Shown piece by piece: positions 11,145-55,412 of a DNA stretch of 64,000 nucleotides; the stretch's first letter is position 1; each line of letters begins with the position of its first letter. Below the pieces are notes generated by a model. That model did not search any database. It was not told the origin of the DNA and was given only the letters and a program-made list of their open reading frames with translations. This stretch comes from Sclerodactyla briareus (Eukaryota > Echinodermata > Holothuroidea > Dendrochirotida > Sclerodactylidae). The translations under genes were made by a program, and so were the position numbers. The stretch is taken from assembly GCA_026419785.1 (NCBI GenBank), contig JAODTK010001865.1, forward strand, positions 62,001 to 126,000. The letters run 5' to 3'.

Positions 11145-12090
11145 AGTTCATGTATAACCGATGGTACTCTGCTCCAACCCAGGGCGCAGCGATGAGGTAC
11201 ATTTAGTTCATGTGTAACCAATGGTACTCTGCTCCTACCCAGGGCGCAGCAATGAAGTACATTTAGTTCATGTATAACCGATGGTACTCTGCTCCAACCC
11301 AGGGCGCAGCAATGAGGTACATTTAGTTCATGTATAACCGATGGTACTCTGCCCAACCCAGGGTGCAGCGTTGAGGTACATTTAGTTCATGTGTAACCAA
11401 TGGTACTCTGCTCCAACCCAGGGTGCAGCATTGAGGTACATTAGTTCATGTATAACCGATGGTACTCTGCTCCTACCCGGGGCGCAGCGATGAGGTACAT
11501 TTAGTTCATGTGTAACCAATGGTACTCTGCTCCTACCCAGGGCGCAGCAATGAGGTACATTTAGTTCATGTATAACCGATGGTACTCTGCTCCAACCCAG
11601 GGCGCAGCGATGAGGTACATTTAGTTCAGTATAACTGATGGTACTCTGCTCCAACCCAGGGTGCAGCGTTGAGGTACATTTAGTTCATGTATAACATGGT
11701 ACTCTGCTCCTACCCAGGGTGCAGCAATGAGGTACATTTAGTTAATGTATAACCAATGGTACTCTGCTCCAACCCAGGCGCAGCGATGAGGTACATTTAG
11801 TTCATGTATACCGATGGTACTCTGCTCCAACCCAGGGTGCAGCGTTGAGGTACATTTAGTTCATGTATAACCGATGGTACTCTGCTCCAACCAGGGTGCA
11901 GCAATGAGGTACATTTAGTTCATGTATAACCAATGGTACTCTGCTCCAACCCAGGGCGCAGCGATGAGGTACATTTAGTTCATGTATAACCATGGTACTC
12001 TGCTCCAACCCAGGGTGCAGCGTTGAGGTACATTTAGTTCATGTATAACTGATGGTACTCTGCTCCAACCCAGGGTGCAGCGATGAGGTA
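11145..12090 (+). repeat. 60-bp minisatellite carrying the exon 3 splice acceptor
   Basis: About 16 head-to-tail units of ~60 bp run directly into DOCK exon 3. Each unit contains a branch-point-like tataacc, a pyrimidine-rich ctctgctccaacccag ending in AG, and then ggtgcagcgatgaggtac, which is the first ~19 bases of exon 3 (codons for GAAMRY). The last unit is the real acceptor. The array is therefore a serial copy of a complete 3' splice site plus the exon's first residues. Units differ by a few substitutions and single-base indels. Reverse-strand open frames across it are by-products of the periodicity. Confidence 0.9.
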
Positions 12091-12252
12091 AATCCTGCAG
12101 TGGATTTCAGACACAATGGCGCTGTTCAGTCCCAAGGAGCTCGCTGAACTACTGAAGGAATTCATCATCAAGCTGCGGCCGAAGAACTGGTCAGACCAAA
12201 GCTGGAATGCATTCAGAGACTTTGTTCACCCGTGATGTTTTCAGGTGGCGGG
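12074..12252 (+). CDS. DOCK1-like: DOCK exon 3 (middle helical region)
   Basis: The exon begins after ccaacccag and ends at a gtgagt donor. One frame reads GAAMR, a TAA at 12089-12091, then ILQWISDTMALFSPKELAEL, aligning residue for residue with family sequence AALKYIPSVLHDV-x-MVFD-x-KLLSQLL. The frame then slips: LVRPKLECIQRL in the next frame matches the family's KLQKQKVQSMNEIV. The last base pairs with exon 4's first two bases to make Glu (E of ECPNILLP). The upstream minisatellite units carry TAC where the exon has TAA. Confidence 0.8.
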
Positions 12253-13159
12253 GTGAGTAAAATTACAATAGTTGCAACGAAATGAGGGCATGTATTACAG
12301 GTGTGTATTCTCTGCATAAATTGTTACGTATCCTAATGCATATGACTAGGCCTAGATCGAGGTATTAATTCAGATATAATAATCCTATCCTATATAGGTT
12401 GATCACCATCATGAGCCCAATCTAAGAGGGAAGGGCTACAACTCGATCTGAAATTCTGTCCGATTGTTTATTGACTACCTAGATAGAAAATGTGGCACGT
12501 GCAATCAATCGGAGTGCAAAATCAAGAGTACAGATGTTTGATGAGAGAAATTATGGACAGCTCAATCTGCAAAATATGAATCCTCGTCACAATCAGTCCT
12601 GATATCAGTCATGCAACTATGTTCATTTCTCCCAAATTGATGATTTGATTTGATGTGATTTCTACAGGTTTCAGTGAGCGCAGTAAGGCTCCTCAAGTAA
12701 CCCTGGCCATAGTGATTGTGGATGAGAACTGGCGAAACGGGTCGCCCCTCCTCTCTCTCGACTAGTGCTCAAATGATATTGCGGGCAGGGGTGTAACCCT
12801 TCCCAACCTGCTCCATTTCACACCATCCCAGAAGGATGATCAGGGAACCCCAGGATCCAGTCACCCTCATGGAATCTGGTGAAACTCAGACCTATTGCAA
12901 TATCCATAAAAAACCAGGAACCCAAGCCGAATCCCATGCTTATAGTCGGAAGCCATGAATTGGAGATCAAGACAAGACCACCTCGCCCACACACTGCAAG
13001 CACAGCCACCTAGGGAAAACGTCCGGTGACTGCTGGAAGTTGGCTCGGAATGTTGCTTGAGAAGCGTCACTTATACCACCACTTTGCCATTCTTCTGCTC
13101 TTGAATATTGTCTTCCAAAAGTCAGTGGCATCCACTGAGCATCTCTCTCTCGATTACAG
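12253..13159. other. Intron, nothing recognised
   Basis: Ordinary intron between exons 3 and 4. The end is pyrimidine-rich (tctctctcgattacag) and makes a strong acceptor for exon 4. Confidence 0.5.
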
Positions 13160-13287
13160 AGTGCCCGAACATCCTGTTACCAATGATGGCAGCACAGCTG
13201 GAGCACCACATGATGAAGAATGAAGAAATGGCCATGTGTGCTGAACTACTCACAGATATATTAGATGTGCTCTGGAGAAAAGAAATG
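13160..13287 (+). CDS. DOCK1-like: DOCK exon 4 (middle helical region)
   Basis: The exon reads without interruption: ECPNILLPMMAAQLEHHMM, then a KNEEMAMCAELLTDILD segment and VLWRKEM. It aligns with family sequence ECRDILLPV-I and CVELLNSILEVL. The acceptor is cgattacag and the donor gtcagt, a weaker form than most donors in this gene. Everything from codon MMKNEE to the donor is repeated downstream in the 111-bp array. Confidence 0.88.
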
Positions 13288-14890
13288 GTCAGTATGTGTG
13301 TTATCATGTAATCAGTCACATGATGAAGAATGATGAAATGGCCATGTGTGCGAACTACTCACAGATATATTAGATGTGCTCTGGAGAAAAGAAATGGTCA
13401 GTATGTGTGTTATCATGTAATCAGTCACATGATGAAGAATGATGAAATGGCCATGTGTGCTGAACTACTCACAGATATATTAGATGTGCTCTGGAGAAAA
13501 GAAATGGTCAGTAGTATGTGTTATATCATGTAATCAGTCACATGATGAAGAATGATGAAATGGCCATGTGTGCTGAACTACTCACAGATATATTAGATGT
13601 GCTCTGGAGAAAAGAAATGGTCAGTATATGTGTTTATCATGGAATCAGTCACATGATGAAGATGATGAAATGGCCATGTGTGCTGAACTACTCACAGATA
13701 TGTTAGATGTGCTCTGGAGAAAAGAAATGGTCAGTATATGTGTTATATCATGGAATCAGTCACATGATGAAAATGATGAAATGGCCATGTGTGCTGAACT
13801 ACTCACAGATATATTAGATGTGGCTCTGGAGAAAAGAAATGGTCAGTAGTATGTGTTATATCATGTAATCAGTCACATGATGAAGAATGAAGAAATGGCC
13901 GTGTGGGCTGTACTACTCACCGATTATTTAGATGTGCTCTGGAGAAAAGAAATGGTCAGTAGAATGTGTTATATCATGTAATCAGTCACATGATGAAGAA
14001 TGAAGAAATGGCCGTGTGGGCTGAACTACTCACAGATATGTTAGATGTGCTCTGGAGAAAAGAAATGGTCAGTATGTGTGTTATCATGTAATCAGTCACA
14101 TGATGAAGAATGAAGAGATGGCCATGTGTGTTGAACTACTGATGGATTAGATATACTCTGGAGAGAAGAAATGTCCAGTATGTGTGTTGTCCTGGATCAG
14201 TCACCTGATCAGTCACATGATATGGTCACATGATGAAGAATAAAGTAATGGCCATGTGTGTTGAACTACTCATGGATTAGATGTACTCTGTAGAGAAAAA
14301 ATTGCCAGAATGGTGTGTTTTCATGGGATCAGTCACGATTAGGTCACATGATGAAGAATGAAGAGATGGCCATGTGTGTTGAACTACTGATGGATTAGAT
14401 ATACTCTGGAGAGAAGAAATGTCCAGTATGTGTGTTTTCATGGGATGAGTCTCCTGATTAGGTCACATAATGAGAAATGAAGAGATGGCCATGTGTGTTG
14501 AATTACTCACAGAATAACTAGATGTACTCTGAAGAAAAGTAATAATCAGTATGTGCGTTCTCATCAAACAGTCACATGGTCAGGTAACTATATGAAGAAA
14601 TGGCCATGTGTGCTGAACCACAACTGTATTAGATGTACTCTTGAGAAAATAATTGTTAGTATTAGCACTGTCATTCGATCAGTCACATGGTTAGGTAACA
14701 TCATAAATCAGGGAGAATTGGCCATATGTGCTGAACTTATCACAGCTGTATTAGATTTGCTGTGGAGGGAAAAAACGGTCAGTATTTGCACTGTCATGTG
14801 ATAAGTCGCACTGTCACGTGATAAGTCACACTGTTAGATCACATGATGAAGAATGAGAAAAGGCCAAGTGTGCTGAAGTACTCACAGCTA
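13195..14890 (+). repeat. 111-bp minisatellite carrying most of exon 4 plus its donor
   Basis: About 15 units follow one another, starting inside exon 4 itself. Each unit holds about 85 bases of exon 4 (atgatgaagaatgaagaaatgg to the end), the gtcagt donor and ~25 bases of intron (atgtgtgttatcatgtaatcag). Units 1-9 are close to each other; those after about 14100 decay progressively. The acceptor half of exon 4 is not repeated. Each unit contains an in-frame taa in the intronic part, so the array cannot be one long reading frame. Confidence 0.9.
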
Positions 14891-15182
14891 TATAAGGTAT
14901 GTCCTGGAGATATATAATGGTCAGTTTTTGTGCTGTCCTGTGATCAGCGCCCTGATTTTGTGGATGTGGATTGAGTCGGTTGTGCAAACAGGAATAATGA
15001 TGATGAACAAGAGTGGATTTGCCTGAAGAAACAGCAAGCGTTGAGAACTCTTCAACCCGCTGGTTTGACCTTCCATTCTCATCAGTTTGTTTGTACACTG
15101 TCGAAAGTGGCTCATTTTGTGTTGAAGGCACTCAAGCCCCTCTGAAAATACCATGACAATAACTTTGTTCTTGCTCCTCCAG
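14891..15182. other. Intron end before exon 5
   Basis: Short intronic remainder after the array, ending in the pyrimidine-rich ttcttgctcctccag acceptor. Confidence 0.5.
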
Positions 15183-15279
15183 AAAGTGACTCACGGTGAT
15201 ATATCCCGCTGATGCACACATTACTACAGCCGACCATACAGTCAGCCTCATGATGAACTCAGAAGACCCACAGCTACTG
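15183..15279 (+). CDS. DOCK1-like: DOCK exon 5 (middle helical region)
   Basis: Bounded by ctcctccag and gtaaaa. The pieces KVTHGDI, LMHTLLQPTIQS and VSLMMNSEDPQLL, lying in different frames, align in order with family sequence of the type HIQLIMERLLRRINRTVIGM followed by NRQSPHI. At least two indels are present. Support comes from order and spacing between the ELLTDIL exon and the NVYPNDW exon. Confidence 0.68.
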
Positions 15280-16343
15280 GTAAAACACTTTTCAGCTACT
15301 ATAAAAGTGTGACAGACAAATGATAGTCATTTGTGATTCAGGTATGTCTTCTCTCTTGTGCCATGTTTAGTTTACATGGTCAGATTCATCTGATCAGACA
15401 CTAGGCACAGCAGAGCTGTAAAGAGTAATGTGACAGTGAGCTGTACCGTTGAATGTGTTATTGATAGCTGATCTAGGGTATCCAGGACAATGTTAACTTT
15501 TTTTTTTGGCGTCGCATTTCCATTCACAACTTAACATATGAAAATATTAACATCTACATGTGCAATAGTCCCACACATAACCAGTGAATGGTAACAAAGT
15601 GTTAACAAATACAAAGAAAGCTTAAACACTAGGTAGCATGTGGGCAACCTCCTTCTCTTGGGCCAAGATTAAAATAAAACAGTAATCGTAGGCTCATTGA
15701 GCACTCAGCCTTGCTGGCTAGATATGGTCCATACCCCCAGGATGTCCATAACTTAGGGAATAATGAACAGATACACAGGCCTTTGTTGCAGAATAAAATC
15801 AGGATGACATACATTAGGAGGTTAGAAAAGCCTGAGGGGCAGCCCCGACTACTATGACGTCAAATGGTTTTAATACCAAAAACAAAGGCCTGAATATTTG
15901 TCTATTATTCCATTCATAGAATACCCAATCACTTCACTTTTGCTTCATGTGAGAAGTGTGATAATGATGCCCCAAATTAGCAGCAAAACGTTTCGAGGAG
16001 TGTTTGATGAACTGTGCATGCTACATGTGTGCATGCAACTTGTACTTCGCATATCGTGTTTGCAACGGCTAAACCGCGTCAAATTGCTTGTGCGTGCTTG
16101 ACTTATACGTAACGCCAGGCATTAGGGTTGGTCGCCCACTTCTTCCTTATTTGGTCAGCTGGTGTTTAGTAATCAAATTATAACCGTCATAATTCACTTT
16201 TCAACCTTGTAGCCGCTCTTTTCTCTTTTGTTGTAAGCTGTTAAGTCAGATGAGGGAATGTCATGTGTATATCTCACCCACTATGCTAACTGTTCCATGG
16301 TCGTTTTAGTTCATTCTTTGCATTTTTTTCTCTTGTCTAATAG
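15280..16343. other. Intron, nothing recognised
   Basis: Ordinary intron sequence with a T run near 15499. No exon or element recognised. Confidence 0.5.
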
Positions 16344-16542
16344 GGAAAATCTGTGGGCACTGTATGATCTCACAGCCTGCTCCGTCAGAATGAAACTGAG
16401 TCCCACTACAGGAATACCTCATGCGTTACCATCCAATAGAACTCATAGACTTTCTCATGAAGAGCTTCCTTGTGTTCATAAACCTCGTCTCCAAGAACGT
16501 TTACCCCAATGACTGGTCAGTCATGATCATGCAAGTTAACAG
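16344..16542 (+). CDS. DOCK1-like: DOCK exon 6 (middle helical region, KNVYPNDW)
   Basis: The exon starts after tctaatag and ends at gtgagtg. The second half reads without a break: PIELIDFLMKSFLVFINLVS, then KNVYPNDWSVMIMQVNR. It aligns with family sequence [22 protein letters not shown]. The first half aligns as CMIS followed by LLRQNETESHY in a shifted frame, so there are two compensating indels. The last ~38 bases plus donor form the unit core of the downstream 108-bp array. Confidence 0.9.
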
Positions 16543-19310
16543 GTGAGTGATCCAGTCTATGTAGGGTGGGAACTGAACTGTGACACTGTTTCAGACATAC
16601 TGGTCTACCCAATGACTGGTCAGTCATGATCATGCACGTGAACAGATGAGTGATCCAGTCTATCTATGTAGGGTGGGAACTGAACTGTGGACACTGTGTC
16701 GGACATCTGGTCTCCCCAATGACGGTCAGTCCATATCATGCAAGTAAACAGTGAGGATCAGTCTATCCTATTTAGGGTGGGAATGTACTGTGAACACGTG
16801 TCAGCATACTGGTCTACCCTACGACTGGTCAGCGTCATGATCAGCCAGTAACATGTGAGTGATCCGTCTATCTACGTAGGGTTGGGAACTGAACTGTGAC
16901 ACTGTGCAACAACCGGCTACCCCAATGACTGGTCAGTCATGATCTTCAATTAAACGTTGAGTGACTCCATATATGTAGGGTGGGAACTGAACTGTGACAC
17001 TGTTTCAGACATACTGGTCTACCCCAATGACTGGTCTGTCATGATCATGCAATAAAACGGGTGATGATTTCAGTCCTATCTTTTAGGTGTTCACTGAACT
17101 GTGACCACTGTGCATACATACTGGTCTACCCAATGACTGGTCCAGTCATATCATGCAAGTTAAACGGGTGAGTGATCGAGTCTATTTATGGAGTGTGGGA
17201 ACTGTTGAAACTGTGTTTGGACTACTGGTCTACCCAATACTGGTCAGTCATGATCATGCACGTACCAGTGAGTGACCATCTAATCTAATGTAGGGTGGGA
17301 ACTGTGACAGTGTTCGTACAAACTGTCGACCCCATGCCTGGTCAGTCATGAGCATGCAAGTCAACAGGCGATGATCCATTCTTGTCGGGTGTGAACTGAA
17401 CTGTGCACTGTGTCAGACATACTGGGCTACCCCAATGACTGGTCAGCATCATGATCAAATCAAGTCAACAGGTGGTGTCATTCTTCTATGTATGTTGGGA
17501 ACTTTGACACTTGTCGGACATCTGTCCTACACCCAATGACTGGTCAATCATGACACGCAAGTAAACAGGTGATGATCCAGTCTATCTATGTTGGGTGGGA
17601 ACTGACTGTGACACTGTGTCAGACATCTGGTCTAGCCCCTACGACTGGTCAGTCATGACTCATGCAAGTAAACAGGTGAGTGATCCATTCTATGTGGGTG
17701 GGAACTGAACTGTGACACTGTGTCAGACATACTGGTCTACCCTAACGCCTGGTCAGTCATGATCATGCAAGTAAACAGGTGAGTGATCCAGTCTATCTAT
17801 GTAGGGTGGGAACTGAACTGTGACACTGTGTCAGACACACTGGGCTACCCCAATGACTGGTCAGTCATGATCATGCAAGTAAACAGGTGAGTGATCCAGT
17901 CTATGTAGGGTGGGAACTGAACTGTGACACTGTGTCAGACACACTGGGCTACCCCAATGACTGGTCAATCATGATCATGCAAGTAAACAGGTGAGGGATC
18001 CAGTCTATCTATGTAGGGTGGGAACTGAACTGTGACACTGTGTCAGACATACTGGTCTACCATTTGTCAGACGGACTGGTCTACCATGTGTCAGACGGAC
18101 TGGTCTACCATTTGTCAGACGGACTGGTCTACCATTTGTCAGACGGACTGGTCTACCATTGTCATACGACTGGTCTACCATGTGTCAGACGGACTGGTCT
18201 ACCATGTGTCAGACGGACTGGTCTACCATTTGTCAGACGGACTGGTCTACCATGTGTCAGACGGACTGGTCTACCATGTGTCAGACATACTGGGCTACCC
18301 CAATGACTGGTCAGTCATGATCATGCAAGTAAACAGGTGAGGGATCCAGTCTATCTATGTAGGGTGGAACTGTGACACTGTGTCAGACATACTGGTCTAC
18401 CCCAATGACTGGTCAGTCATGATCATGCAAGTAAACAGGTGAGTGATCCAGTCTATGTAGGGTGGGAACTGAACTGTGACACTGTGTCAGACATACTGGT
18501 CTACCATTTGTCAGACGGACTGGTCTACCATTTGTCAGACGGACTGGTCTACCATGTGTCAGACGGACTGGTCTACCATGTGTCAGACATACTGGTCTAC
18601 CCCAATGACTGGTCAATCATGATCATGCAAGTAAACAGGTGAGTGATCCAGTCTATCTATGTAGGGTGGGAACTGTGACTGTGTCGGACATACTGGTCTA
18701 CCATTTGTCAGACGGACTGGTCTACCATGTGTCAGACGGACTGGTCTACCATTTGTCAGACGGACTGGTCTACCATGTGTCAGACATACTGGGCTACCCC
18801 AATGACTGGTCAGTCATGATCATGCAAGTAAACAGGTGAGGGATCCAGTCTATCTATGTAGGGTGGGAACTGAACTGTGACACTGTGTCAGACATACTGG
18901 TCTACCCCAATGACTGGTCAATCATGATCATGCAAGTAAACAGGTGAGTGATCCAGTCTATCTATGTAGGGTGGGAACTGTGACTGTGTCGGACATACTG
19001 GTCTACCCCAATGACTGGTCAGTCATGATCATGCAAGTAAACAGGTGAGTGATCCAGTCTATGTAGGGTGGGAACTGAACTGTGACACTGTGTCAGACAT
19101 ACTGGTCTACCCCAATGACTGGTCAGTCATGATCATGCAAGTAAACAGGTGAGGGATCCAGTCTATCTATGTAGGGTGGGAACTGTGACTGTGTCGGACA
19201 TACTGGTCTACCCCAATGACTGGTCAATCATGATCATGCAAGTAAACAGGTGAGTGATCCAGTCTATCTATGTGTCTGTCTGTCTGTCTGTCTAACTTAC
19301 TTCCCTGTCT
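16505..19310 (+). repeat. 108-bp minisatellite carrying the exon 6 end and its splice donor
   Basis: About 26 units follow exon 6. Each repeats the last ~38 exon bases (taccccaatgactggtcag onward), the aacag|gtgagtg donor and ~65 intron bases ending ctgtgtcagacatactggtc. Units from about 16550 to 17650 are ragged with many single-base indels; those from about 17700 to 19260 are nearly identical. Nested inside are three blocks of a 24-bp satellite (about 18055-18290, 18497-18590, 18697-18790). The long open frames reading GLVYHVSD over and over are products of the 24-bp period. Confidence 0.92.
18055..18290 (+). repeat. Nested 24-bp satellite block
   Basis: About ten units of catttgtcagacggactggt(cta) lie inside one unit of the 108-bp array. 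Smaller blocks of the same 24-mer recur at about 18497-18590 and 18697-18790, showing the block was copied together with the larger unit. The 24-base period gives an eight-residue periodic open frame that I do not regard as a gene. Confidence 0.9.
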
Positions 19311-24355: not shown

Positions 24356-24978
24356 TCTAGTTATGGGGCAACCCTAGCTGACCAGCATGATGCTGAAATC
24401 CATTTTATAGCACTATAAATAACAAAATGTTGCAGGAGTTTTAATCATTTCAACCCCTCAGTCATGTTATTTCCATTCACCTAACATTATTCCTATCTGG
24501 ACAGACAGAGATTTCATCTATTGTCAAACCTGCCTTTTAACTTGAGGTTCACTCCTGCCTGGGGGGGGTTTCCCCCAATAACCTCTTCTGGCCCCCTACA
24601 CTGACCATATAATTAAACAATCAGTCATTTGTTTACTTACTCTCAGGCACCTATTCAGAATGAAGGGGGACAGGTTACACCTGCAGTAGCTCGGGGGTGT
24701 GAGATGGGGGGGGGGGGGGGGTGGGGGGGGGGGGAAGAAATAACTGCCATTGGACGGCTATTATTAAATGGAATCTTATGGGTGACACGTAGGATATAAC
24801 AGACAAACTAACTTAATTATTTGTTTAGTTTTTCTCTGGCATTACTATTTGCTTTGCCCATACATGGTGATTCGGGAATGAAATACTAATTTGTGTTCCT
24901 CTCGGGAATTCTGAAGCTGGCCGTTTGGTCACATACGATTGTATAAATGTACCCTTGCTCTTTTTTTTTCATATCCAG
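24356..24978. other. Intron with interrupted poly-G run
   Basis: Contains a G run at 24706-24734 broken by one T, then ordinary intron ending in a T-rich tract and atatccag. Confidence 0.6.
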
Positions 24979-27445: not shown

Positions 27446-27536
27446 ATTAATATTCTGACAAGCATGAATGGGTTTAAATGTGTGTGTTTTTCGTTCTTCA
27501 CACTTTCAATAAACCACAATTGTAATTGTTTTGCAG

Positions 27537-27668
27537 AATTTTTACAAGGAGATTGACAGGCAGGACATGTACATACGGTATCTGTATAAACTATGAGACC
27601 TTCACCTTGAATGTGAGAACTACATCGAAGCAGCCTATGCTCTACAACTCCGAGCTAACAGACTCAAG
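27537..27668 (+). CDS. DOCK1-like: DOCK exon 11 (DHR-2 lobe A start, [12 protein letters not shown])
   Basis: A 132-base, 44-codon exon between ttttgcag and gtaact. It reads [19 protein letters not shown], a TGA at 27594-27596, then [19 protein letters not shown] and ANRLK. It aligns with family [20 protein letters not shown] and DLHRDCENYTEAAYTLLLHA. The stop replaces the conserved Arg of KLRDLH; the first tandem copy downstream has CGA (Arg) at the same codon (27780-27782). Otherwise intact. Confidence 0.95.
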
Positions 27669-28505
27669 GTAACTCAAGTCATACTGTACTAGATAGGGAT
27701 AGCCACGTGGGGATCATTAGAGGGGGGTGGGTGGGGTGGGCGTACTCTGTTCATGTACATCCGGTATCTGTATAAACTACGAGACCTGCACCTTGAATGT
27801 GAGAACTACATCATAGCAGCCTATGCTCTACAACTCCGACTCACAACCAAGGTAACCCAAGTCTACTGTACTAGATAGGGATAGCCATGTGGGGATCATT
27901 AGAGGGGGGTGGGGGGGTACTTCTGTTCATGTACATACCGTATCTGTATAACTACAGACCTGCACCTTAATGTGAGAACTACATCGATGCAGCCTATGCT
28001 CTACAAATCCGAGCTAACAGATCAGGTAACTCAAGACAATACTGTAAGCTAGATAGGAGGGATGTCCCCACGTGGGGATCATTGGAGGGGGGGTGGGTGG
28101 TACTCTCTGTTCTGTTACATAACGGTATCCGTATAACTACAGACCTGCACCTTGACTGTGAGAACTACATCGAAGCAGCCTATGCTCTACACAAACACCG
28201 AGCTAACAGACTCCAAGGTAACTCAAGACATACTGTACTAGATAGGGATAGCATGTGGGGATCGTGGAGAGGGGGGGGGGGGGGGGTAGGGGGGTACTCC
28301 GAGCTACAGACTCAAGGTTACTCAGGTCATTATGTAATAGATAGGGATAGCCATGTGGGGATCATTAGAGGGGGGGGGGTGCTGGGTGGGGGCGGACGCT
28401 GTTCATGTACATACGTGGTATATGTATAAACTAGAGACCTCCTTGAATGTGGAACTACATGACGCAGCCTATGCTCTACAACTCCAAGCTAACAGAGGGT
28501 GGGTT
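27545..28505 (+). repeat. ~180-bp minisatellite carrying most of exon 11 plus its donor
   Basis: Beginning within exon 11, five to six units repeat the exon from gtacatacggtatctg to its end, the caag|gtaact donor and ~70 bases of intron ending in a G-rich block (attagaggggggtggg). Copies start near 27754, 27930, 28117 and 28405, with a partial one near 28295. Later copies are ragged with many single-base gaps. The acceptor and first codons of exon 11 are not repeated. Confidence 0.88.
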
Positions 28506-29043
28506 CACACTATTCTGATACCCAGTGGACCCACCAGAAGAGAAGAAGTATTTGTATTCTTGTGTTAAGATGATTATTGTTTTAGCCCTCTTGAAGCTGG
28601 GGTTGTTCGTATCTGTTCCCAAAAAAAAAAAAAATATCAGCCCCGACTGACTGAAAGATTGTCTTTCTCCAAATTACCAATTGGGCGTGGCCGTGTGAGA
28701 AGCACATGTTTGCATTGTCAAACTGCTAACGGCAATCCTCGATGTCACGATGTGGTGAACAGCTGTTGCGGTCCAACCTTCACGGACCTTGAATATTCCG
28801 GAGTTAGGTGTATTTTTCTCTTTATCAGTGTATGCGATTAGCTTTATCCATATTGTAAGCAGATTTTAATTTGGACAAACACTTGAGTAGTATGTGTGTG
28901 CGTGATGGCGCACTGCAGAAATTCCGCTATTGGTGTACATAAAGCAGCAGGTAATCGGGGAATATCAAGTATCATCGTCTTAACGCAAGACTATATGCAT
29001 ACACAACATAGAATTTTAATTACTACCATGTTTGTTATTACAG
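28506..29043. other. Intron, nothing recognised
   Basis: Ordinary intron with an A run at 28621-28634. It ends in atgtttgttattacag before exon 12. Confidence 0.5.
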
Positions 29044-29576: not shown

Positions 29577-29735
29577 TAAACTACTTCCGGGCATTACCTT
29601 CGTGGACTTACTACAAAATGCATTTTCGGCCAAACGACGCTTCAACCACACCCTATACCATAAAAAAAGAAGTTAAGCACAGCCCGGTACCGAAAGCAGC
29701 GTAACTAGCTGGGAGCTGTACGGGGCTGCACTATC
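29577..29735 (+). repeat. Left inverted terminal repeat of DIRS copy 2
   Basis: Aligns with the left arm of copy 1 (ttacttcc/cttcagg edge, then ggacttactac, cattttcggcc and ggggctgcac) and is the inverse complement of 36828-36965. Confidence 0.78.
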
Positions 29736-32700
29736 ATTCTTGTCGGTGTGTGTTGCACAGCAACAACCAGGCTACTGGTATTCGTTGAGTTCCGCTTCTC
29801 ACGCCACTTCTGCCACTATCCAACACTATCAGGTGATATAATCTTTTTTGGGGTTGTGGGTGTATTTTCCGTAATTAATTCACGATTCTGCATTCTTGGG
29901 ATCTTAAAACTTTCGATAGCCGCAGTGCGGTCTTGTGTGTGAGCGGGTATTTGTGTTTTAGGCTTCGTGCGGGCCGAACGTGCTTGGTGGGGGCTGGGGT
30001 TTTATCCATCCCTACCCGCCCGGGATAGGTGCGTTATTCCTTCCCGATATCTTGTTTTGTTCGTTTGAGCCTTTCTGGGCTCTGTCCGCCCCCTTGGGCT
30101 CCGGAGGGGGTGTTTTCCCCACTAGTCGTAGCGGTTTTCCCACTCCTTAGATATCGCTAGCTTTGCACTAGGACTTCTACAGACTGTGGCTAATGGGGGT
30201 TTCCGTTCCGGTGAATTTGTGTGTTTTCCCCCGTCGTCGGCCTCAGGGTGGCTAGGCCCTCAGGCGATCAGAGCGCTGGGCTCTCAGGCCGGTGCCTAAT
30301 TTGAATCATAGGGCAACCTCCGTCCTTTTTAGCATTGGCTCCGGATGCCTTTGGGGGTGCAAGTGTTGTGGTCTATAGTCTATTTATTTCATATGTCACG
30401 CATATGTTGCCGCTGTTGCGGGCTATAGCTGGGGAGGGGCAAAATATTTTCTTTTCACTGTCAGGACGTAGCAATTTTTGTTCCTCTTTAATGAGCCATC
30501 TTCGGCGGTGACGTCACCGCGGTAGCTTTGGCGGACATCTTTATTTTCGCCCGTCAGGGGATTTTTCCCCTCCCTGGTGGCCTAGGGGGGCCGTGGACTC
30601 AGGGGTTTGGGTGTCTTTGGGTTCCCTCTAAGGGCCCTCTGACCGGTCATGCTTTTCCCTCCCCACCCCTCCTCGGTAAGTGGGGGGGGGCCTTTAACGT
30701 TTCGTGCAGTTTTCACGTTTGCACTATATCTCGTAAACGGTAAGCCATAGGGGGGTACAAAGTTGCAACTTTGATTTTAGAGTAGGGCCGGAGGGGGTCA
30801 TTGTTGGACCACTGGGCGGCCTCTCCGGGTCCGTTGACCTATTTCGAGTACATTGTCTATGTAGAGTACTTAGTTTGAGTAATTACTGATTTACAAACTT
30901 GGGTTCGTTTGCTTTTTACAGTTCTGTAAGATGAGGAGCATTACGTTACATTGTCCTCGAGACAGCGCACTCCCGCAAGGGAATCAGGGGTCCTCCCGTT
31001 TTACTGCGGCGTCGGGCTTGCGTGCGCTCAAAATCCACGCTTGGTGGGGATCCCTTGGGTACCCGTCTTCGGAGAGTCGGGACCTTGGAGTAGTCTTCCT
31101 TCACCCTCCACTGCTGGCTCCTTTGTTGGGTCCGCCAGTACTGGGGGGAATGAGGCCCTGCGGTTGGCGAGACTCGGTGGTGACGGTCACTTGTTGAAGT
31201 GCCACGGGATTAATACATCGTCACCACGGGTCTTTCAGGGACCATTGCGATCCCTATGGGCACCTCGGTGTCTCAGTCACCCCTCCCTGCTCCCTTCCAC
31301 ATCAGGCGGACCGTGCTGCAGGCGGGCCTGGGTGGGGGGAATGAGGTCTCCGCGGGGACCACTGTTTTGAAGACGACTACGTTGGCGCTGCCGAACCTTT
31401 CAGGAGGTCCATGTCCCCTACACGGGTAGGGCAGGCCTCCGCGTGTGGGTTCGGCTCAGGCCACCCTACAGGACCCGGTTGGCCCTGCCTGGGGGTGGCA
31501 CGAACCAAGGGCGGGGCGGCCAGGGTCAGGGACGTTCCTTCCAGTGGGGGGGGGGACGGGTTCCTGGGAGCACCACCGCCATCTGTTTATGGCGTTCTCC
31601 CCGGAATACTGTTCGGGACGTAGGCCTGGTAAGTGTTCAGGGGACGGCCGCCACAAGGGGCTGTCAGGTGAAGTAGTCATTGTTAGTGCGGCCCACCCAT
31701 TGGGCTATCACGTCGGTCGCCCGAAGGGGCACCGTCATGGGCGTACGGGGTTTTGGGGGCGCGGCCCCATGGGCTGCCAGCCCAAACAAACCTCGCCACG
31801 GGTTCTCCCGCTTGGGTCTCTTTGGGGAGCCCCACCCACTCCTGGGATGCTCGGGAAAACTTGCGGTCCGAGACTGCGGGACCGGTCGGAGTCCATTGTT
31901 GTCCCTCCGATCAAACCCCAGAATGCAAGCCAGTCCGTGCGATGGAAAACGGGGGTCACACCCTGAAGTCGTCCTCGGATGAGGAAAAGGAGCAAACAAC
32001 CAAGCCTCGTACGTCCTGTAGCCTAAGAAGAAGAGCGATGCTTCAGGCAGGCAATTAGCTTCCACGTTGGAAGCTCTTCAGTCCCTGACGACGGGTGTTG
32101 GCTCAAGGGCGGTCAAGCCCGGAGTTGAAGGGACTCTCCAGCCCGGGACCGGGGGTCGTGGTCCAAATCCCCCATCCTCGAAACACCGGACACTCCCCGC
32201 GAGCCGGTATGGTTTTCAGTGTCCGGTCGTTCCTCCCCGGACGTCTCCGCCTGTTGTTAGGGCGACGGAGCCGTCGAGGGAGGACAGCGTCGATCTTCCC
32301 CGCCGGTATCGAACAGAGATAGACAGTGGCACGCATCCGACCGTTGGTCAGGATCGGACGCTACGTCTTCGCCGGCTGAATCTCCTGCCACAAAAGAGGG
32401 CGGGACGTAGGGCAGGAGTCCCTTCAGTTGACGGAAGAGCACCCGTTACGGGGCCTCGTTGAGGAGACACCGCGCGGCGGGACGGTAATGGCGCGGGCTT
32501 TTTTCCATGGACTGTCAAGACCAGGAGGCCGCGACGGAGGTCGCCAGGCTGGGGCGTTTGGACAGCCCGGGGTCCGCCTCCGACCGCTATACTCCCTATG
32601 CGCTGACGTATTACAGATTTCCAGGCTAGGGCTGGAAGTCCCCGTCGAGGTCCCACAGCGGGAGTACGCCTCTTTCGAGTACACAGGCACCAGTACGATG

Positions 32701-35700
32701 GCCATTTCGTTCCCCTCCCTGCCGCCGGCGGCGTGGGACAGGCTGGTATGTCGGGGAGGACGTCGGTTCTCCCGGCCAAGGAGGGGGGAAGGACTTCCTT
32801 CCGTCTGAGGAGAGGCACCAGGCGTGAACGAGACGGCCGATCTCAGGTTTTTGACCGTGCAGCGAGAGATCGTATCCATGTCTCGGCTCTCCAGATTTTC
32901 TTACGGAGTGGTTGCCAAGGTGACGGCGCAGCAGACCCCTCCTTGCGGGAGGGGTGATGGCGAGAGTCCAGTTGGCGATTACTAGACTGGCCTGCGATCA
33001 GTTTGCCCGCTTGCCGTTAGTGCAAGTCTTGCAGCGGAGCTGTGTCTACCGGACTGGAACATCTATCCGTCGACGAGGACGAATCCGAGCAACCCCTATT
33101 TTGGTCCCCGACTTGGAGGCTGTTTTCCCAGGGTCCTGGAACAAGCGACGCTTCCGGGTGGAAACGTACTGGGAGACGGCAGACGTGTCACCGTAGAGGA
33201 CAGTATTAGGGTCAGAGCCGCCGCGCTCGGGGGAGCCCTCACGCGTCTCGGCCCTCCCGGAGGGGGAGGGTTCCTCCAACCCCCATAAGCAGGAAGGGGA
33301 ACACGGCCAAGCGTAGGCAGCCCAGGGGGGCGCATTCTCCTGACGTGGCAGAAGGAGGAGGCGATGCCTCCAGCCAGCCCATGGGTAAGGGACTACCGGC
33401 CCCCTGTCCCGGAACACCCCCGGGCGGACCCCACCGGTGGGGGGGTCCTCTCCGGGACTTTGCGGGGCGTGGCCCACTGTCACCCCGGACAGGTGAATCC
33501 TGGCCACGCTCTCAAGGGGTATAGTCTCTGGAGTTTACGGCGCCTCCCCCGGTCCCGCGGACCGCCTCCCAGGCGTCGCGTTGGAGAGGGAGATCTAAAC
33601 CCTTTTGGCCAAGTGGGCCTTAGCCCCTCCTCCACGGAAGGGCCCCGGTTTGTGGCGTCCTTCTTCTGACGTCCAAGTGGGACGGTTCTTGGCGGCCGAT
33701 ATTGAATAGGCGTCCTCTCAACCGTGTAGTCCGCACACCCCACTTCCGCATGGACAAACCAGGCGGTGAGTTTCAAACACTGAGGAGGGGTCTCTTGGGC
33801 GACGTCGGTGGGACCTAGCGGATGCCATACTTGCATATCCCCGTCAGGCGGGGAGGATTCCTTATTCTATGCTTCCGCGACCACGCGACTTCTCCTACCG
33901 ACTACCGTACTCCAGTTTGGGTTGTCGGACGGCGCCCCGTGGTTTACACGGGTCTCGAGGCCCACGGTGTTGGCCATCGGCGTCGTCAGGGGGTAAGATC
34001 CACTTATCGGAACCGAATGGCTTATCGTGGTGGACTCAGCGGCGGGTTCAGAGGAGCACCGGCACGGTTCTGGACTTGGCTCGGACTGAGGATGGCTACT
34101 TCAAATTCGCCAAGTCCGACCTGGGACCGTCCCCACAGATCGTTTATCTGGCGTCATGTGGCAGTTGAGTGAGCGGACTGGGTGGCCACCCCCAACCCGG
34201 GGAGACTGGAATTTAAGTCCCTGAAGGGGTGTGTCTGCTCAGGGCAGAAGTCTGCCTGCGCGGGAGTGGGCGGTTATCTCGGCTTCATGGCGAACCTAGT
34301 GGACCTGGGCCCCTTTTGCCGGCTGTACATGCGCGCCCTCCAACCACTCTGGGCGTGTTTGCGCCGTCGTTGGAAACTGTCGACGCCCGGACGTGGCAGC
34401 CACACCCGGGACCCGATAATCCGGTGGTGGCGGAATAGGGAAAACGTTCATGAGGGGGTAACAGTTCCCCGCCTTCCCGTCCCACTTTTTGCCCACGTCC
34501 GACGCCTCGTGGATGCGTGGCCGTGTGGGTTCGGGAGTTACGGGGAACCACTAATGTGCTCGAGTTGCTGGCGTCGTTCCGCGCATTGAATTATTCAACG
34601 AGAGTGGCGGGGCCGTTCGCCCTCATAATGGTCCGTTGCGACCAGTACCGCGGGCGGTATCGTACATACCCAGCAGGGGCAGGACGCCTTCGCGGAGTCG
34701 ATGGTCAGTGACATAGGATCTGTTCCTGTGGTTCCGCACGCACGGGGTGCGGTTTCAGGCGGTTCACCTTACGGGTGCAAAGAACTCCATCGCGGACAAT
34801 GCTCTCGCGCATCACTAATGCTCCGACAGAGTGGTCTATTCACGTCGGAGTTGTGCAAGCGTTGTTCGAGGCGTGTCATGTCCGGAGTTGGACTTGATTC
34901 GCATAGCCTCTTAAAAGCAAAGATGCCTCTATTCTGCAACCCTAGTCCCGTAAAGGGGCGCCCTGGGTGGTTCGATGCTCTGGATCTGGTTTGGGCCTTT
35001 ATCGATGCGTACGCCTTCCCGCCGTTCGGCATAGTCGAAAGGTTGGCAGGGAGCCCGTGTTGGGTCCCACTGATAGTGCCGGTTTGGCCGAACAGAGCTG
35101 GGTTCCGGCGGGACACTTCTGGAGTTGCTGGCGGAGGCGCGCGCGACTTCTCCCCGGCCTTCTGGAACACCTGGTGCTACGGGTCTGGGGGAAAAGCGCC
35201 GTCCGCACGGAGCTCTGGGCTTGGTTGCGTGGCGTGTGTCAGGGATTACCTCCGAGCGTCGGGCCTTCGGAGACGGATGCCGCGTGGCGGCCTGGGGTCG
35301 GAGAATTTACACCCTTCGCCTGTGTGAATCGCGACTCGGATTGTAAGAGGGTGTGTGCTTGATCGCAGGTTTCTACAGGCCGCGTCCACTGTCGGGGAGG
35401 TGGCCCGATTTCATCCCTCCTTGTTCGTTAGGGCGGCAAGTGAACCGCTCCGCGGTTACCGTCGCTGTTGCGGCTGTACATACGGTTTCGGGAATGGTCA
35501 ACGGTGTATTTGCGAGGCCATTTGACCTTCTCCTTCGTAGTATGTTCTTGATATCGTCCTAGGGTTCGCACTTTCTAGTTCCGCACTGGGACATGGGGGA
35601 CGTCCTGCGGATACTAGCGGAAGCCTTCCAGTGAACTGTAGCGGACTCTATCGCTGCAGCTGTGCGGTTGAGACAGCGGTACTTCTTGCGGCGGGCATAG

Positions 35701-36639
35701 GCTCGGAGCCCGTGGGGCCTGCTGCTCCGTCTATCCTCCCCGGCCATATGCGTTTCGAGCCTAACGGGGTCAGCCTGGGTCCGGACCCGTCGTTTCTCAC
35801 TAAGCGCAGTCGGGTCAATTCTTCTCCCGGCTCCGATTTTCATCGCGTTGGCTTTTGGGGCGTGGAGGGGGACGAGGTGTGGTGTCCGGTTCGGGGCCTT
35901 TTGGGGTTTACCTGGTTCGGACCCGTCCCCTCCGTAGTCCGTGTACGTCGCTGTTTGTTTTCAAATCACGCAGCGACCTCATACGACGCTCCTCCATGGA
36001 TACGATCTCTGCGCTGGATCGTCAGCGAGTGATCCGCCGCGCGTTGGTCCGTCTCGACCACGCAGAGCTCTCGATTGGCGGGGGGTTGCCTCCTCCCTTG
36101 CTCCTCTATAAAATGGGTGGCCTTGGAGAGTTTCGTACAGGCTGCGCGATGGATTCTCGAGAGGATACCTGTAATTCGCTTCCCCCCTACCGTCGGGACC
36201 CCCTGCGGAGTGAATCCCCGCATGGCTAACCGCTTTCCTCCGTCCTTCCCCCGCGCGGGGGTCTCGTTCGTGTTCCGCGTCTGGTGGCGCCCCGGTCTCG
36301 CCGGGGGGGTACTGCCTCGCTCGATAAGCCTTCGGCTTTGTGCCTCTCCCCCCCCTCCCCACCCGCGGCCACCCGCGCCCTTGGTCGCTCTAGACGTGTT
36401 CTGTGTTGGGATGGGGAGGGATAGGGGGTTTTCCCCTCTCTCTTGTAATATAATGGGAAAAGGGGAGGGGATTTAAGATAGGATGTATGAGTAGGGTTTT
36501 GAATGGCCGGGGTGAGCTGTACTCAGACATCTTTCTTAATGGTGAGTGGTCTATTCTAGTTGGATTAATTCGCTCCCCCCCCCGGCTTCCCACCTCCTAA
36601 TGCGAGTGGTAGGCATAATAAAAAATTTTGTGGAAGTAA

Positions 36640-36765: not shown

Positions 36766-36827
36766 ACCCGCCTGTCCTCCCCACTAAGGCCGGGGGACTC
36801 CTCAGGTGCTAGTTTGGCATGATAGTT

Positions 36828-37006
36828 GAGCCCCGACCCGCTCCCAACTAGTTACGGCTGCGTTCGGTACCAACGGGCTGTGCTTAATTACTCTTTTTTA
36901 GTGGTTATAGGGGTGTTGAAGCTGTCGTTGGCCGAAAATATGCAATTTGGTAGTAAGTCCCGAGGTAGTTCCCCTCGTAAGTAGCCCCTCTTAACGAAGG
37001 GGGTTA
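36828..37006 (-). repeat. Right inverted terminal repeat of DIRS copy 2
   Basis: Inverse complement of the left arm, ending cttaacgaagggggtta. This terminus matches that of copy 1 at 6984; sequences beyond diverge, which defines the border. Confidence 0.78.
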
Positions 37007-40064: not shown

Positions 40065-41060
40065 GTAAGCTCAGGCTCAGCAGTATGGTGTAATATCTGT
40101 GTTCAGCAGTGTCAGCATTGAGTTCAAAGTACAATGGTCATGTAAACATAACTTTTGCTATCCTGGTGTCTTATATCTAGTATATTTGGGAAACTCAAAC
40201 CTCAGAAAGAATTCCAGGCGATCCAATTGTGAGAAGGAGCCAATTCTGCTATTGTGCATGTGCCCGGGACGTTCACAGAGTAACTGGGGACCTGTGTAAA
40301 CAAAGGCAATACACAATATGTATTTTCACCAACCTAGTGACAAAAGAGCTAACAATAGAGTCTGATTGGAAACTTACAAATTTGTTCACAGAATATACAA
40401 GCATACTTTCATTAATTTCACTATGACTATTAGAGTAATCTTTCTCTGCTATTATGCTGCAGATATAATCATTTACGTGTACAGTCATGGGCAACCTCTG
40501 CAATTTTACCCTGGTGACGTCATCAGTTATGGTGAATTAATTTAAGTAAAATAAATAACTCAATAAGGGACAGACACATCGCAACTTTTGGTTGTGGGGT
40601 GTTGATTTGTCCTCTCTTCATCTGTGGCCAGTTTAAAGATTGTCTGTTGCTGACCATGTGTCTTTAATGATGCTATGTGATGGGGGGTTGTATATTCCCA
40701 GTGGGTGTTTAAGTCACATTAGATTCACTCTCTCAACTAATTTTGTTACTTTCTCAACCTTAACAAGAACTTTTGATATTTCTACATTATTGTACATGTT
40801 CTTCAGCTGGAATGCATTTTTTACTACTTGTTTTGGCATAACTCCAAAACTGTACCCAACACATCTATGTGTTGTCATGCAAACAATGGCGGTGGAAAAT
40901 ACATGATATTGCAATCCATCATTGAGGGTGTTTGACTATTCGTTTCTCGACATTGCCGTCATGATAGTGGTAGACTAGGATCAACCACAACACCAGGCAC
41001 CTTTGGTGCAAAAAAATATTGCCTTCAATTGTAATGTGACAATCAAATTCTTCACCATAG
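40065..41060. other. Intron, nothing recognised
   Basis: Ordinary intron between exons 14 and 15, with no repeat or exon recognised. Confidence 0.5.
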
Positions 41061-41144
41061 CTACTATTCTGTCAATGAGGTTCAGAAGTTTACCTACTCC
41101 AGACCATTTCACAAGGAGCAGAAGGACAAGGAGAATGAATTCAA
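41061..41144 (+). CDS. DOCK1-like: DOCK exon 15 (DHR-2 lobe B, KFTYSRPF)
   Basis: Intact exon reading YYSVNEVQKFTYSRPFHKEQ then KDKENEF, between ttcaccatag and gtgagt. Aligns with family NYYRANEVQQFRYSRPFRKG and EKDPDNEF. No disruption inside; a one-base discrepancy at the join with exon 16. Confidence 0.96.
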
Positions 41145-41747
41145 GTGAGTCTCGTCATCACACACACTGATAAATAAAACCTCAGTATTAACAATTGGAA
41201 CAAAAATGGAAACTTTTAATTGGTCAGTGTTTTTATATTGTTTGCATACAAGTGCTTACAGGCTAATTAGTATTATGTTGACAGTGAGGTTTTGAGTTCT
41301 CTTCCTTTCGCGTACCTCTCATCATTTTCTGAAGTGAAATATGGCTCATAGGTGAAGCACCCATAGTGTCTTGTTGGTTTCAGTTAACTAAAGAGCAATT
41401 CATAGTGAGTACATAATCGAGTGCTTGTGATCACTTTGAATTCCACTGTACTTGTATTAGGCAATCTGCAACATACTCGTAATGTCGAAAGGTGCACACA
41501 GATTCCGGTAATGTTCCACTAACACCAGTGACATATTAGGATATTTTTGCTTTCTTTTCAGGAAACATGAATTTGAAATGTAGTGAAGTGGAACCATGAT
41601 CTGAATGCTGGGGATGTTTCTGTCCCCAGCTCTTATTGGAAGTCCTTTCAATGTGGAGTACATCCCCCGGTGAATTACACCTTGATGAATATACTTGTGT
41701 TGCAAAATTCTTCTCATTCAGGTATTGTGTTGCTATTCATTTTGCAG
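41145..41747. other. Intron, nothing recognised
   Basis: Ordinary intron between exons 15 and 16. Confidence 0.5.
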
Positions 41748-41835
41748 ACGATGTGGGTAGAGAGGGACCTACTATACATATCATAGAAACTGCCCGGTAT
41801 CCTGAGGGTGGTTTGAAGTCATCAGCACAACAACG
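41748..41835 (+). CDS. DOCK1-like: DOCK exon 16 (DHR-2 lobe B, TMWVER...KLPGILRWFEV)
   Basis: Between cattttgcag and gtagga. Reads TMWVERDLLYIS, a TAG at 41784-41786, KLPGILR, then (after one extra G in a ggg run) WFEVISTTT in the next frame. Aligns with family TMWIERTTYTTAY-x-LPGILRWFEV. The extra G looks like a homopolymer error; the TAG replaces an expected Tyr codon. Confidence 0.93.
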
Positions 41836-42108
41836 GTAGGATCTCACTCCAAGCTTTGATACAAATTAAAATCACTTAATTTCTCCCCCCCTCAATCTCC
41901 AGGGAAAAACAACATCTCTGTGGTTGTGATACCTATCTCCTCTGAGTTGGAAATTAGCATCAAGCTGGAAAGAGGATAGGACATTAATTTGAAGATAAGC
42001 AGAGCTTTCATCTCACTACAGAACTGATCTGCTTTTGCCCAGCCCCCCATGAGGAAGGCTGCTTCATCCTCAAAGGAGGCTCAGTAAGGACTCCGTTGTC
42101 ATGTAGCC
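41836..42108. other. Intron left of the hAT element
   Basis: Ordinary intron; ends with the left target duplication atgtagcc at 42101-42108. Confidence 0.6.
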
Positions 42109-42508
42109 CAGTATTTCCCAAACTTTTCATGGTGGGGACCCCATTTCATGTAGCGCCATGCGAGCGGGACCAAAGTTTGGGTCTCCAGAATAATGAATAT
42201 GTACAGGCATTCATTTACCTGTAGTAGCATACTTATTGTATTTGAAAACAATATAATGAATATACAGAAACAGGGTGGCCAGCAACAATTGACAAAACGC
42301 CAGACTCCCCCGGAAAAATGCTAGAACATCCGCTAATAAATCCTAAATAATAGGTTTTCAGGGTGATTTGTAGGATTTTGACTGCGAAAGTTCAAATTCT
42401 GGTAAACTTGGGGTACCCCAGATTTTTTTTTTATTCTGAAACACATGCGACCCTAAAAATTGCTTCACTACCCCAGTTGGGTCGCGACCCCAGGTTTGGG
42501 AAACCATG
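42109..42508. mobile_element. Non-autonomous hAT transposon (MITE) with exact 8-bp target duplication
   Basis: A 400-base element begins CAGTATTTCCCAAAC and ends GTTTGGGAAACCATG, inverted repeats of the hAT CAGTG-TTTCCCAA type. It is flanked on both sides by the identical octamer atgtagcc (42101-42108 and 42509-42516). An 8-bp duplication is the hAT signature. The interior (ggggaccccatt ... gggtcgcgacccc) has no transposase. The exact duplication suggests a fairly recent insertion. Confidence 0.93.
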
Positions 42509-42516
42509 ATGTAGCC

Positions 42517-42926
42517 TACCACCCTTTCAAAGTACCTATGTCGAGGAAGTCATGAAGAGAGTAATGCGTCATATACATGTCGCTTCTCTAACTTTCTTAT
42601 TGATACCAAGAGTGAAGAAATTGGCCCTCAGTGATTTACTCTGGATGTTCCTATAAGAAGTCAAGTTTGTTTTCATCAGGGTCATCAGGTTTCATGGTAT
42701 TAATTAGGTCTGAAAATTATTTAACAAGACTTAGCAAGGTGTACAGAATACAGTTGTGAAGAATGAAATGAACATTTGGTTCCATAGCTGGAAATTCAAT
42801 ATATTTTCTTATATTTCTCTCATATTAAGCATGACCATTAGTTGTTATGACTTCTTGTGCAAGTAGTAAATTGACACAATCTGGTTAGAGTAGTGTCATC
42901 TATTCTATTTCATTATTCTATTCCAG
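42517..42926. other. Intron right of the hAT element
   Basis: Ordinary intron ending attattctattccag. Confidence 0.5.
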
Positions 42927-43102
42927 GAGGAGCTCAGTCCAATACAAACAGCATAGCGAAACCCCAGGAGGGAGATTAACCGTAACTGACGAATTATCAT
43001 ACACACACCAAGAAGAACCATCCCTCCAGGTTAACCCTCTCAGGATACTGAACAGGTGATGACGTCTGGGCTGTCATGGGGGGACCAGTGGTCTATGAAC
43101 AG
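42927..43102 (+). CDS. DOCK1-like: DOCK exon 17 (DHR-2 lobe C, AVMGG)
   Basis: Starts after tattccag with EELSPIQTA (family EISPLENAIETM). The pieces LQVNPLRILN and AVMGGPVVYEQ follow in other frames, aligning with LSVHPLSMLLSGIVDPAVMGG and YEKAFF. Several indels. The AVMGG segment corresponds to the insert in helix alpha-10 whose valine acts as the nucleotide sensor in DOCK exchange factors. The donor appears as agttatgg here but as aggtatgg in the tandem copies. Confidence 0.85.
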
Positions 43103-44320
43103 TTATGGAATAGATTGATAGTAACACATAACAGACAACTCAAACACACCAACTTACATCAGATGGATAGACAGGTTATGAGAGAGATGTGGGACTGATG
43201 AACGAGTGATAGACGCGGCTGTCATGGGGGGACCAGTGGTCCTTATGAAACAGGTATGGAATAGATTGATAAAACACAATTACAGCCACACTCACACACA
43301 CACACATACATACGATGGATAGACATAGTATAGAGAGAGTGGGACTTGTCGAACAGTGTGTGATAGACTCAGCTGTCATGGGGGGACCAGCTGGTCGATG
43401 AACAGGTATGGAATAGATGGGTCCATAGATAGAAACACAACACAGAAACACACATAAATACAGATGGACTAGAAATAGGTTATGGAGAGAGTGGACTAAT
43501 AACAGTGTGAAGCACTTCGCTCTCATGGGGGTGGGGACCAGTGCGTCTATGATCAGGATGGAATAGACACCACACAAGGACCGATGGACAGACAGGTATG
43601 AATACTGCTGACAGGTAATAAACTAGCTGTCATGGGGGACCTAGTGGTCTATGAGAGGTATGGACATGGTGGAAGAGATAGAAACACACATAATGGATGA
43701 TGGACAGGCTCTATTTTGTGCAAAGGTAGACTGCTGAATAAGTGATAGCCTGACTGATAGACCTGTGGTCTATGAGCCGGTATGGAATTGGTAGGAATAA
43801 ATAGACACACCACACAAACACAGATGGACAGACATTGGTATGAGAGAGTGAGCTGCTTAACAGTGTGATAGGCTCAGCTGTCTGGGGGAGAGGGGGGGGG
43901 GGAACTGAGGTCTATGAACAGGTAAGGAATTGGTGAGACTAGATAAACACACACAGATGGACAGACATAAGGTATGAATACTGCTGAACAGTGTAATAAA
44001 CTCAGCTGTCATGGGGGGACCAGTGGTCTATGAACAGGTATGGAATTGATAGATAGATGAACACATGACAGACAGACATAAGTGAGATAGTGGGTGCAGG
44101 AAAAGCGTGATAGACTCCGTGATAGACTCATGGAGGGGAGGGGGACCTGTGATCTATTAAAGGTATGGAATGGGTCCAGGGGAATAGATCACACACAAAC
44201 CAAAGGACACAGGTGTGTGAGTGGACTGTTGAACAGTGACATAGACCTGGAACACGCATGACATGTGTTATAGGGAATGGACAGATGGACATACACATAG
44301 ATATAGGTGCATGGAACTGG
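43060..44320 (+). repeat. ~130-bp minisatellite carrying the exon 17 end plus its donor
   Basis: Eight to ten units follow the end of exon 17. Each repeats gctgtcatggggggaccagt to tatgaacag, a gtatgg donor, and ~80 bases of intron rich in gatagat/acacacac and agatggacagac phrases. Clear copies begin near 43220, 43371, 43520, 43626, 43878 and 44005; others are degenerate. Units are ragged with single-base gaps. The repeated exon piece encodes the AVMGGPVVYEQ loop. Confidence 0.88.
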
Positions 44321-44461
44321 GCAGTGTGACCCATTGCACCCGTTGTCCACGAGCAATTATGGAATGAGTTGCAGGAATAATAGAGCAGATGAAATAAAGT
44401 ATTTAATGGAAATGTTTTATTATAGATGGCTGCAGTATTTTATTTTGTTTGTTTTTACATG

Positions 44462-55375: not shown

Positions 55376-55412
<37 letters not shown>

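Follow-up and report, generated by a model that had tools for sequence, protein, structure and literature searches.

How does a single gene come to hold several tandem arrays, each built from the edge of a different exon, and what becomes of the surplus splice sites that such arrays create? This question is raised by a stretch of 64,000 nucleotides (the window; C1816:62001-126000 in a genome assembly of 319 Mb and 3,171 contigs), which carries a large part of a gene that by its exon sequences is of the DOCK1/2/5 type. An original prediction made from the letters of the window alone had described five minisatellites in this gene (A1 to A5), and here we report that all five exist, that a sixth (A0) lies upstream in the same gene, and that each has a unit spanning an exon-intron junction. 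The arrays are probably minisatellites of the type termed mirage in amphioxus, which would arise by tandem duplication across a junction, undergo subsequent turnover and be tolerated through splicing.

Structure of the arrays

Arrays were found with Tandem Repeats Finder (TRF), and their spans, copy numbers and unit structure were obtained by wrap-around alignment to a cyclic consensus (Table 1). The predicted unit lengths of 60, 111, 108, 180 and 130 bp proved correct to within about 20 bp. The A1 unit joins 39 nt of intron end, including the 3' splice site ctccaacccag, to 21 nt of exon start (ctccaacccag/GGCGCAGCGATGAGGTACATT, the slash marking the splice junction here and below), which encodes GAAMRYI and matches an exon start of DOCK1 from Apostichopus japonicus. 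The A2 unit consists of 81 nt of exon end with its 5' splice site (HMMKNDEMAMCAELLTDILDVLWRKEM/gtcagt) and about 30 nt of intron, the A3 unit of 41 nt of exon end and about 67 nt of intron (YPNDWSVMIMQVNR/gtgagt), and the A4 unit of 105 nt of exon end and about 78 nt of intron that includes a G run. For A5 the exon part is at least 33 nt (up to LLNSVIDSAVMGGPVVYEQ), the remainder being intron (AVMGGPVVYEQ/gtatgg), and it probably also takes in LLNSVIDS before AVMGGPVVYEQ. A0 is located outside the window, about 9.6 kb upstream (-9594 to -9151; C1816:52406-52849), and has 7 copies of a 63-64-bp unit with the 5' splice site KGQGIWVALKMIPGESKQ/gtgaga.

Homology to human DOCK5 and A. japonicus DOCK1 bears out the claim that each predicted array repeats one exon edge with its splice signal, one of them a 3' and four a 5' splice site; with A0 added, DOCK1 homology assigns the 3' site to A1 and 5' sites to A0 and A2-A5. 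The units had also been described as unrelated, and the six consensus units had no mutual match at E 0.1 except for one 11-base word common to A0 and A3.

Table 1. Coordinates of arrays and adjoining exons in the window
Feature	Position	Strand	Description	Basis
A1	11144..12093	+	60-bp unit, 16.0 copies	TRF, cyclic-consensus alignment, A. japonicus DOCK1
Exon fed by A1	12074..12252	+	last A1 copy joined to exon body	
Exon ending in A2 copy 1	13159..13287	+	LDVLWRKEM/gtcagt, first intron base 13288	
A2	13207..14947	+	110-113-bp unit, 15.0 copies	TRF, cyclic-consensus alignment
Exon ending in A3 copy 1	16345..16542	+	NVYPNDWSVMIMQVNR/gtgagt, first intron base 16543	
A3	16499..19273	+	101-108-bp unit, 26.6 copies	TRF, cyclic-consensus alignment
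Exon ending in A4 copy 1	27531..27668	+	YALQLRANRLK/gtaact, first intron base 27669	
A4	27564..28520	+	~183-bp unit	TRF, cyclic-consensus alignment, A. japonicus DOCK1
Exon ending in A5 copy 1	42928..43102	+	AVMGGPVVYEQ	
A5	43049..44330	+	~145-152-bp unit, ~8 copies	TRF, cyclic-consensus alignment, A. japonicus DOCK1
Comparison array, ~66 bp	54761..55312	.	no exon recognised by homology	
Comparison array, 52 bp	59685..60232	.	no exon recognised; ~450 bp past an exon	

The copies within the arrays are preserved to different degrees. In A2 they are more degraded with distance from the exon, A4 has 3.9 good copies at 27564-28284 followed by degraded ones to about 28.5 kb, and A5 has 7.6 copies at 43049-44074 with degraded ones continuing to about 44.3 kb, the degradation being uneven among copies. 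A3 contains composite units with nested 24-bp sub-arrays, one of them at 18039-18299, and indels are abundant in its middle copies. Substitutions among copies are ordered, taking the form of recurring variant types in A1 and of the composite units in A3, and therefore point to slippage and unequal exchange and not to random sequencing error.

Excess of arrays at exon edges within the gene

Chance was modelled by random placement in the gene of one founder unit for every array, matched to it in length, and arrays with a TRF score of at least 100 and a period of at least 25 were counted. Six of the 13 arrays in the whole 110-kb gene cover an exon edge where 0.81 would be expected (P = 4e-5). With a TRF score of at least 400 the count is 6 of 9 against 0.64 expected, and none of 200,000 placements was as high, while the window by itself gives 5 of 8 against 0.63 (P = 1.3e-4). 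The window was chosen for its arrays, so that the P values for the window and for the whole gene are post hoc. Within the DOCK gene a chance origin of the edge arrays is nevertheless unlikely. Sixty random kb held 4 weak arrays. The prediction had further set aside two other sizeable arrays, near 54.8 and 59.7 kb, as free of exon sequence; homology agrees. The window also has a minor array with a length of 31 bp at 47.29 kb, which had gone unmentioned.

Fate of the copies and splicing

An acceptor-like site was present in none of the five 5'-site units (A0, A2-A5), and the one 3'-site unit (A1) lacked any donor with 7 of the 9 consensus positions matched. Each unit has one kind of splice signal, and therefore no extra copy would be expected to be recognised as an entire internal exon; the combination of acceptor and donor around an open frame, which a cassette exon would require in each unit, is lacking. 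Read-through that continues beyond the first donor runs into a stop after 12 (A0), 7 (A2), 0 (A3) and 7 (A4) codons, that is, in all four arrays tested. Of the 77 copies, 63 retain an intact splice dinucleotide (A0 7/7, A1 14/16, A2 11/15, A3 22/27, A4 4/4, A5 5/8), a fraction near the mean of all dinucleotides in the same unit. Given the absence of partner sites, the early stops and the lack of special conservation, the copies look like intronic passengers that drift neutrally, their decoy sites apparently under neither preserving nor destroying selection.

The copy that joins the exon body, here called the junction copy, has an intact donor in A0, A2, A3 and A4 and an intact acceptor in A1. 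Correct splicing would be expected from sequence signals that agree for A0, A2, A3 and A4, A5 copy 1 being unclear. Junction copies with in-frame stops are found in A1, where the last copy has TAA at the Y codon and the remaining 15 copies have TAC (window 12074-12110), in A4, where copy 1 has TGA and copy 2 has CGA, and, with TAG, in an AGC-kinase exon described below. Because frame breaks occur in many exons, these stops are likely errors; they may also reflect a damaged allele or an exchange between copies that harms the true exon end.

The gene, its host and the assembly

Human DOCK5 and A. japonicus DOCK1 served as tblastn queries to place the exons, which were listed by hand from the alignments; their limits, being alignment-based, may be some bases off. 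Exon translations match Protein Data Bank (PDB) chains of human DOCK5 and DOCK2. When the 1,900 residues of A. japonicus DOCK1 were mapped on the window and its flanks, about 46 exons were placed between -48.0 and +62.6 kb in window coordinates, with stretches from residue 19 to residue 1900 in order across 110 kb of a single contig and some residues (e.g. 1392-1404) without placement at the locus. Searched against the whole genome, the same protein gave 41 candidates, and all 25 that were scored fall in this locus. A second haplotype was not found with the two DNA pieces searched, an exon region of 331 bp and 301 bp of A1, both of which match only the window's own contig.

Alignment to A. japonicus DOCK1 reveals stops and frameshifts in many of the DOCK exons. 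A pseudogene, as these might suggest, is less likely in view of the ordered protein on one contig and the single locus; assembly noise is the likelier source, and some breaks may belong to a damaged allele. The assembly also seems incomplete, in that clathrin heavy chain has no real match (one, E = 2.5) and COX1 has none.

A composite of DOCK exons (residues 140-640) served as query in a search for relatives. Among the 120 proteins listed, A. japonicus DOCK1 was the best (66% identity, 664 bits), followed by those of two sea urchins at 53-55% and of two sea stars, one at 60% and the other at 46%, and the two Branchiostoma proteins in this list were both 44% identical. Since the five best-matching proteins are echinoderm DOCK1, the host is taken to be an echinoderm, by this comparison most likely a species of holothurian distinct from A. 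japonicus. No GFP-family match was present in the genome, which is a weak test as the controls were likewise without match.

Junction arrays in other genes

Eighteen exons of other genes were sampled blind to repeats, comprising all 8 myosin-head exon matches, taken with flanks of about 300 bp, and 10 of 39 kinase exon matches, taken with flanks of 220 bp. Protein match tables are insensitive to such arrays: in the kinase table no segment is repeated, yet an exon listed there bears an array. By self-comparison one of the 18, the AGC-kinase exon on another contig, has a junction-spanning array. The exon end GKPVDWWSMGVVL.EFLVGCPPFFGETTDELFTQAING/gtaagtt recurs about 4.4 times with a unit of 171-181 bp, and the TAG stop of its junction copy is common to copies 1-3 (L028 221-380). 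The best PDB matches of this exon are SGK1 and PKC, and we take it to be MAST-like.

Arrays also begin shortly after the donor of two further sampled exons, 7 bp past it in a NEK1-like exon (C2260:31897-32567) and 86 bp past it in a myosin exon (C2020:109500-110170). The sample contains 3 arrays that cover the donor or lie within about 100 bp of it, compared with an expectation of 0.24 to 0.42 (P = 0.002 to 0.009, post hoc). The same self-comparison of the 46 DOCK exons finds an edge array at 6 of them and an array close to the donor at 2. Of the arrays that cover an edge or start within 100 bp of it, 10 belong to donors and 1 to an acceptor (7 v 1 in DOCK, 3 v 0 in the sample; two-sided P = 0.012, post hoc); for those that cover an edge the numbers are 6 and 1 (one-sided P = 0.06). 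These counts suggest a preference that leans to 5' splice sites, and it may be that arrays in general tend to fall within the first hundred bases of introns. The NEK-like exon also has an array with a 29-bp unit, which ends about 108 bp ahead of the exon start.

Origin of the arrays

A duplication origin, which we regard as probable, would start with a founder segment of 60-180 bp that lies over one exon-intron junction and is duplicated in tandem, after which the units would be expanded and shuffled via slippage or unequal exchange. The exon-attached copy would retain the coding sequence and all further copies would be intronic. Only the junction copy adjoining the exon body would be used, with the exon's other splice site within its reach, and the array would be discarded by splicing. 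We infer the mechanism of duplication, the normal splicing and a junction bias that is mutational (e.g. transcription-linked) and not selective. A process that amplifies exon-intron junctions was already part of the original prediction; the preference inside the DOCK gene and the recurrence in one kinase gene are in keeping with it, and the lean to 5' sites would fit the possible link to transcription or R-loops proposed at the same time. More tentatively, tandem duplication tied to transcription or splicing could prefer the 5' ends of introns here and perhaps widely in invertebrate deuterostomes, with the amphioxus mirages as products of the same process, an extension that we consider possible and on balance doubtful. 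If true, junction-directed duplication would steadily feed introns and could corrupt exon ends.

Several observations weigh against the duplication origin with its junction bias. Edge coverage is no rule even in the DOCK gene, where two arrays start past donors: an 80-bp array (C1816:55622-56311, window -6378 to -5689) begins 32 bp after the donor and a 50-bp array (C1816:46026-46428, window -15974 to -15572) 76 bp after it. The only figure free of selection, albeit a weak one, comes from the 48 kb that precede the window, where 1 of 5 arrays is on an edge against 0.21 expected (P = 0.19). Among the sampled exons of other genes 17 of 18 are without an edge array, and the single case is no excess (expected 0.24 to 0.42; P = 0.21 to 0.34). 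The donor of A5 copy 1 reads cagTTatgg in the assembly where the consensus has cagGTatgg, so that either a later copy may provide the exon end or this base is an error. Frame breaks across many exons denote a noisy assembly, and normal splicing of the arrays is a prediction from sequence signals.

Part of this evidence would be accounted for by chance and the choice of window, that is, by a minisatellite-rich gene in which a few arrays landed on exon edges. The selection of the window for its arrays, the upstream count and the sampled exons, in which one case is within chance, all agree with such a view, and the claim that chance is improbable does not extend to the upstream region. It is the excess over the whole gene that makes chance an unlikely explanation, together with the occurrence of the kinase array in so small a sample. 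A selected device, in which spare donors (acceptors in A1) buffer or tune splicing or supply alternative exons, had been offered in the original prediction and could draw on the many copies with a perfect donor or acceptor dinucleotide. This retention, however, resembles that in the rest of each unit, the partner sites are missing, read-through soon meets stops, and unit length, phase and sequence vary from exon to exon, all of which renders such a device highly improbable.

Birth of introns under way, with duplicated AG/GT junctions becoming new introns and exons (the Rogers model), has been proposed for amphioxus globins (PMC3087553), and the donor is indeed multiplied in every 5'-site array. 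Each array nevertheless lengthens an existing intron, no new intron is seen, and where the arrays lie the exon borders fit A. japonicus DOCK1 with no residues added, so that we give this model very little weight. Arrays created or inflated by noisy long reads would be in line with the frameshifts and stops in several exons, with long G runs and with the indel-filled middle of A3, which is as expected where polishing fails. Random indel errors do not, however, make ordered arrays with shared substitutions, the units differ between sites and the same kind of array is present on another contig; an artefact is accordingly scarcely credible as the source of the arrays, although their copy numbers may be wrong in the assembly.

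Relation to known systems

Mirage minisatellites have been described in amphioxus from Adh3, the globins BflGb6 and BflGb9, PGBD5 and troponin C (PMC3087553, PMC3902484). The repeat of BflGb6 combines intron end and exon start and that of BflGb9 contains exon end; repeat number in the globin mirages varies between haplotypes, and reverse transcription PCR has been taken to indicate undisturbed splicing (PMC3087553). PGBD5 has repeats of 60 and 108 bp (PMC3902484). Length polymorphism, somatic instability and correct splicing are reported for amphioxus mirages. Like the DOCK arrays, these consist of tandem units (tens to about 160 bp in amphioxus) that span an exon-intron boundary on its 5' or 3' side and have unit lengths unrelated between sites (PMC3087553, PMC3902484).

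A unit over an exon-intron boundary with its splice signal is found in A0-A5 and in the AGC-kinase exon, and both kinds of boundary are affected, the 3' side in A1 and the 5' side in A0 and A2-A5. The arrays described here differ from those of amphioxus in their echinoderm host, in the presence of six in one gene and in having up to about 27 copies; that the host is no cephalochordate is a matter of host and not of structure. A report of junction-spanning minisatellites in echinoderms was not found in searches of open-licence papers, and this seems to be a known kind of array in a new phylum.

Intron gain by tandem duplication of AG/GT segments, for example in potato RdRp, likewise duplicates a segment with a splice signal, but it creates a new intron inside an exon whereas existing introns grow here (PMC4974935). 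Internal tandem repeats in human segmental duplications also overlap exon structure and, unlike the arrays described here, concern recent paralogues (PMC2812944).

If junction-spanning minisatellites are present in echinoderms as well as lancelets they are no lancelet curiosity, and the bias to exon edges becomes a measurable property of the duplication process, possibly a wider route by which genomes duplicate splice junctions. A gene with six such arrays, all of them made of several to many copies that have diverged, is suitable for the study of how duplication begins at junctions, of splicing amid dozens of decoy donors and of the seeding of introns.

Other features of the window

Two copies of a G+C-rich repeat of several kb lie at 2111-6639 and 29584-36612 of the window and are 73-79% identical in three blocks. 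The core of the repeat has 54-63% G+C compared with about 41% around it, and a short inverted piece is found at 2135-2265 and 36821-36960. Five open reading frames of the first copy had no Pfam match, and the repeat is possibly a retroelement with inverted ends. Runs of at least 10 identical bases number 18 for G or C and 11 for A or T (e.g. 1247-1293 and 24706-24734), and the long G/C runs could be real or long-read errors. A G-rich tract of 124 bases is located at 55343-55466.

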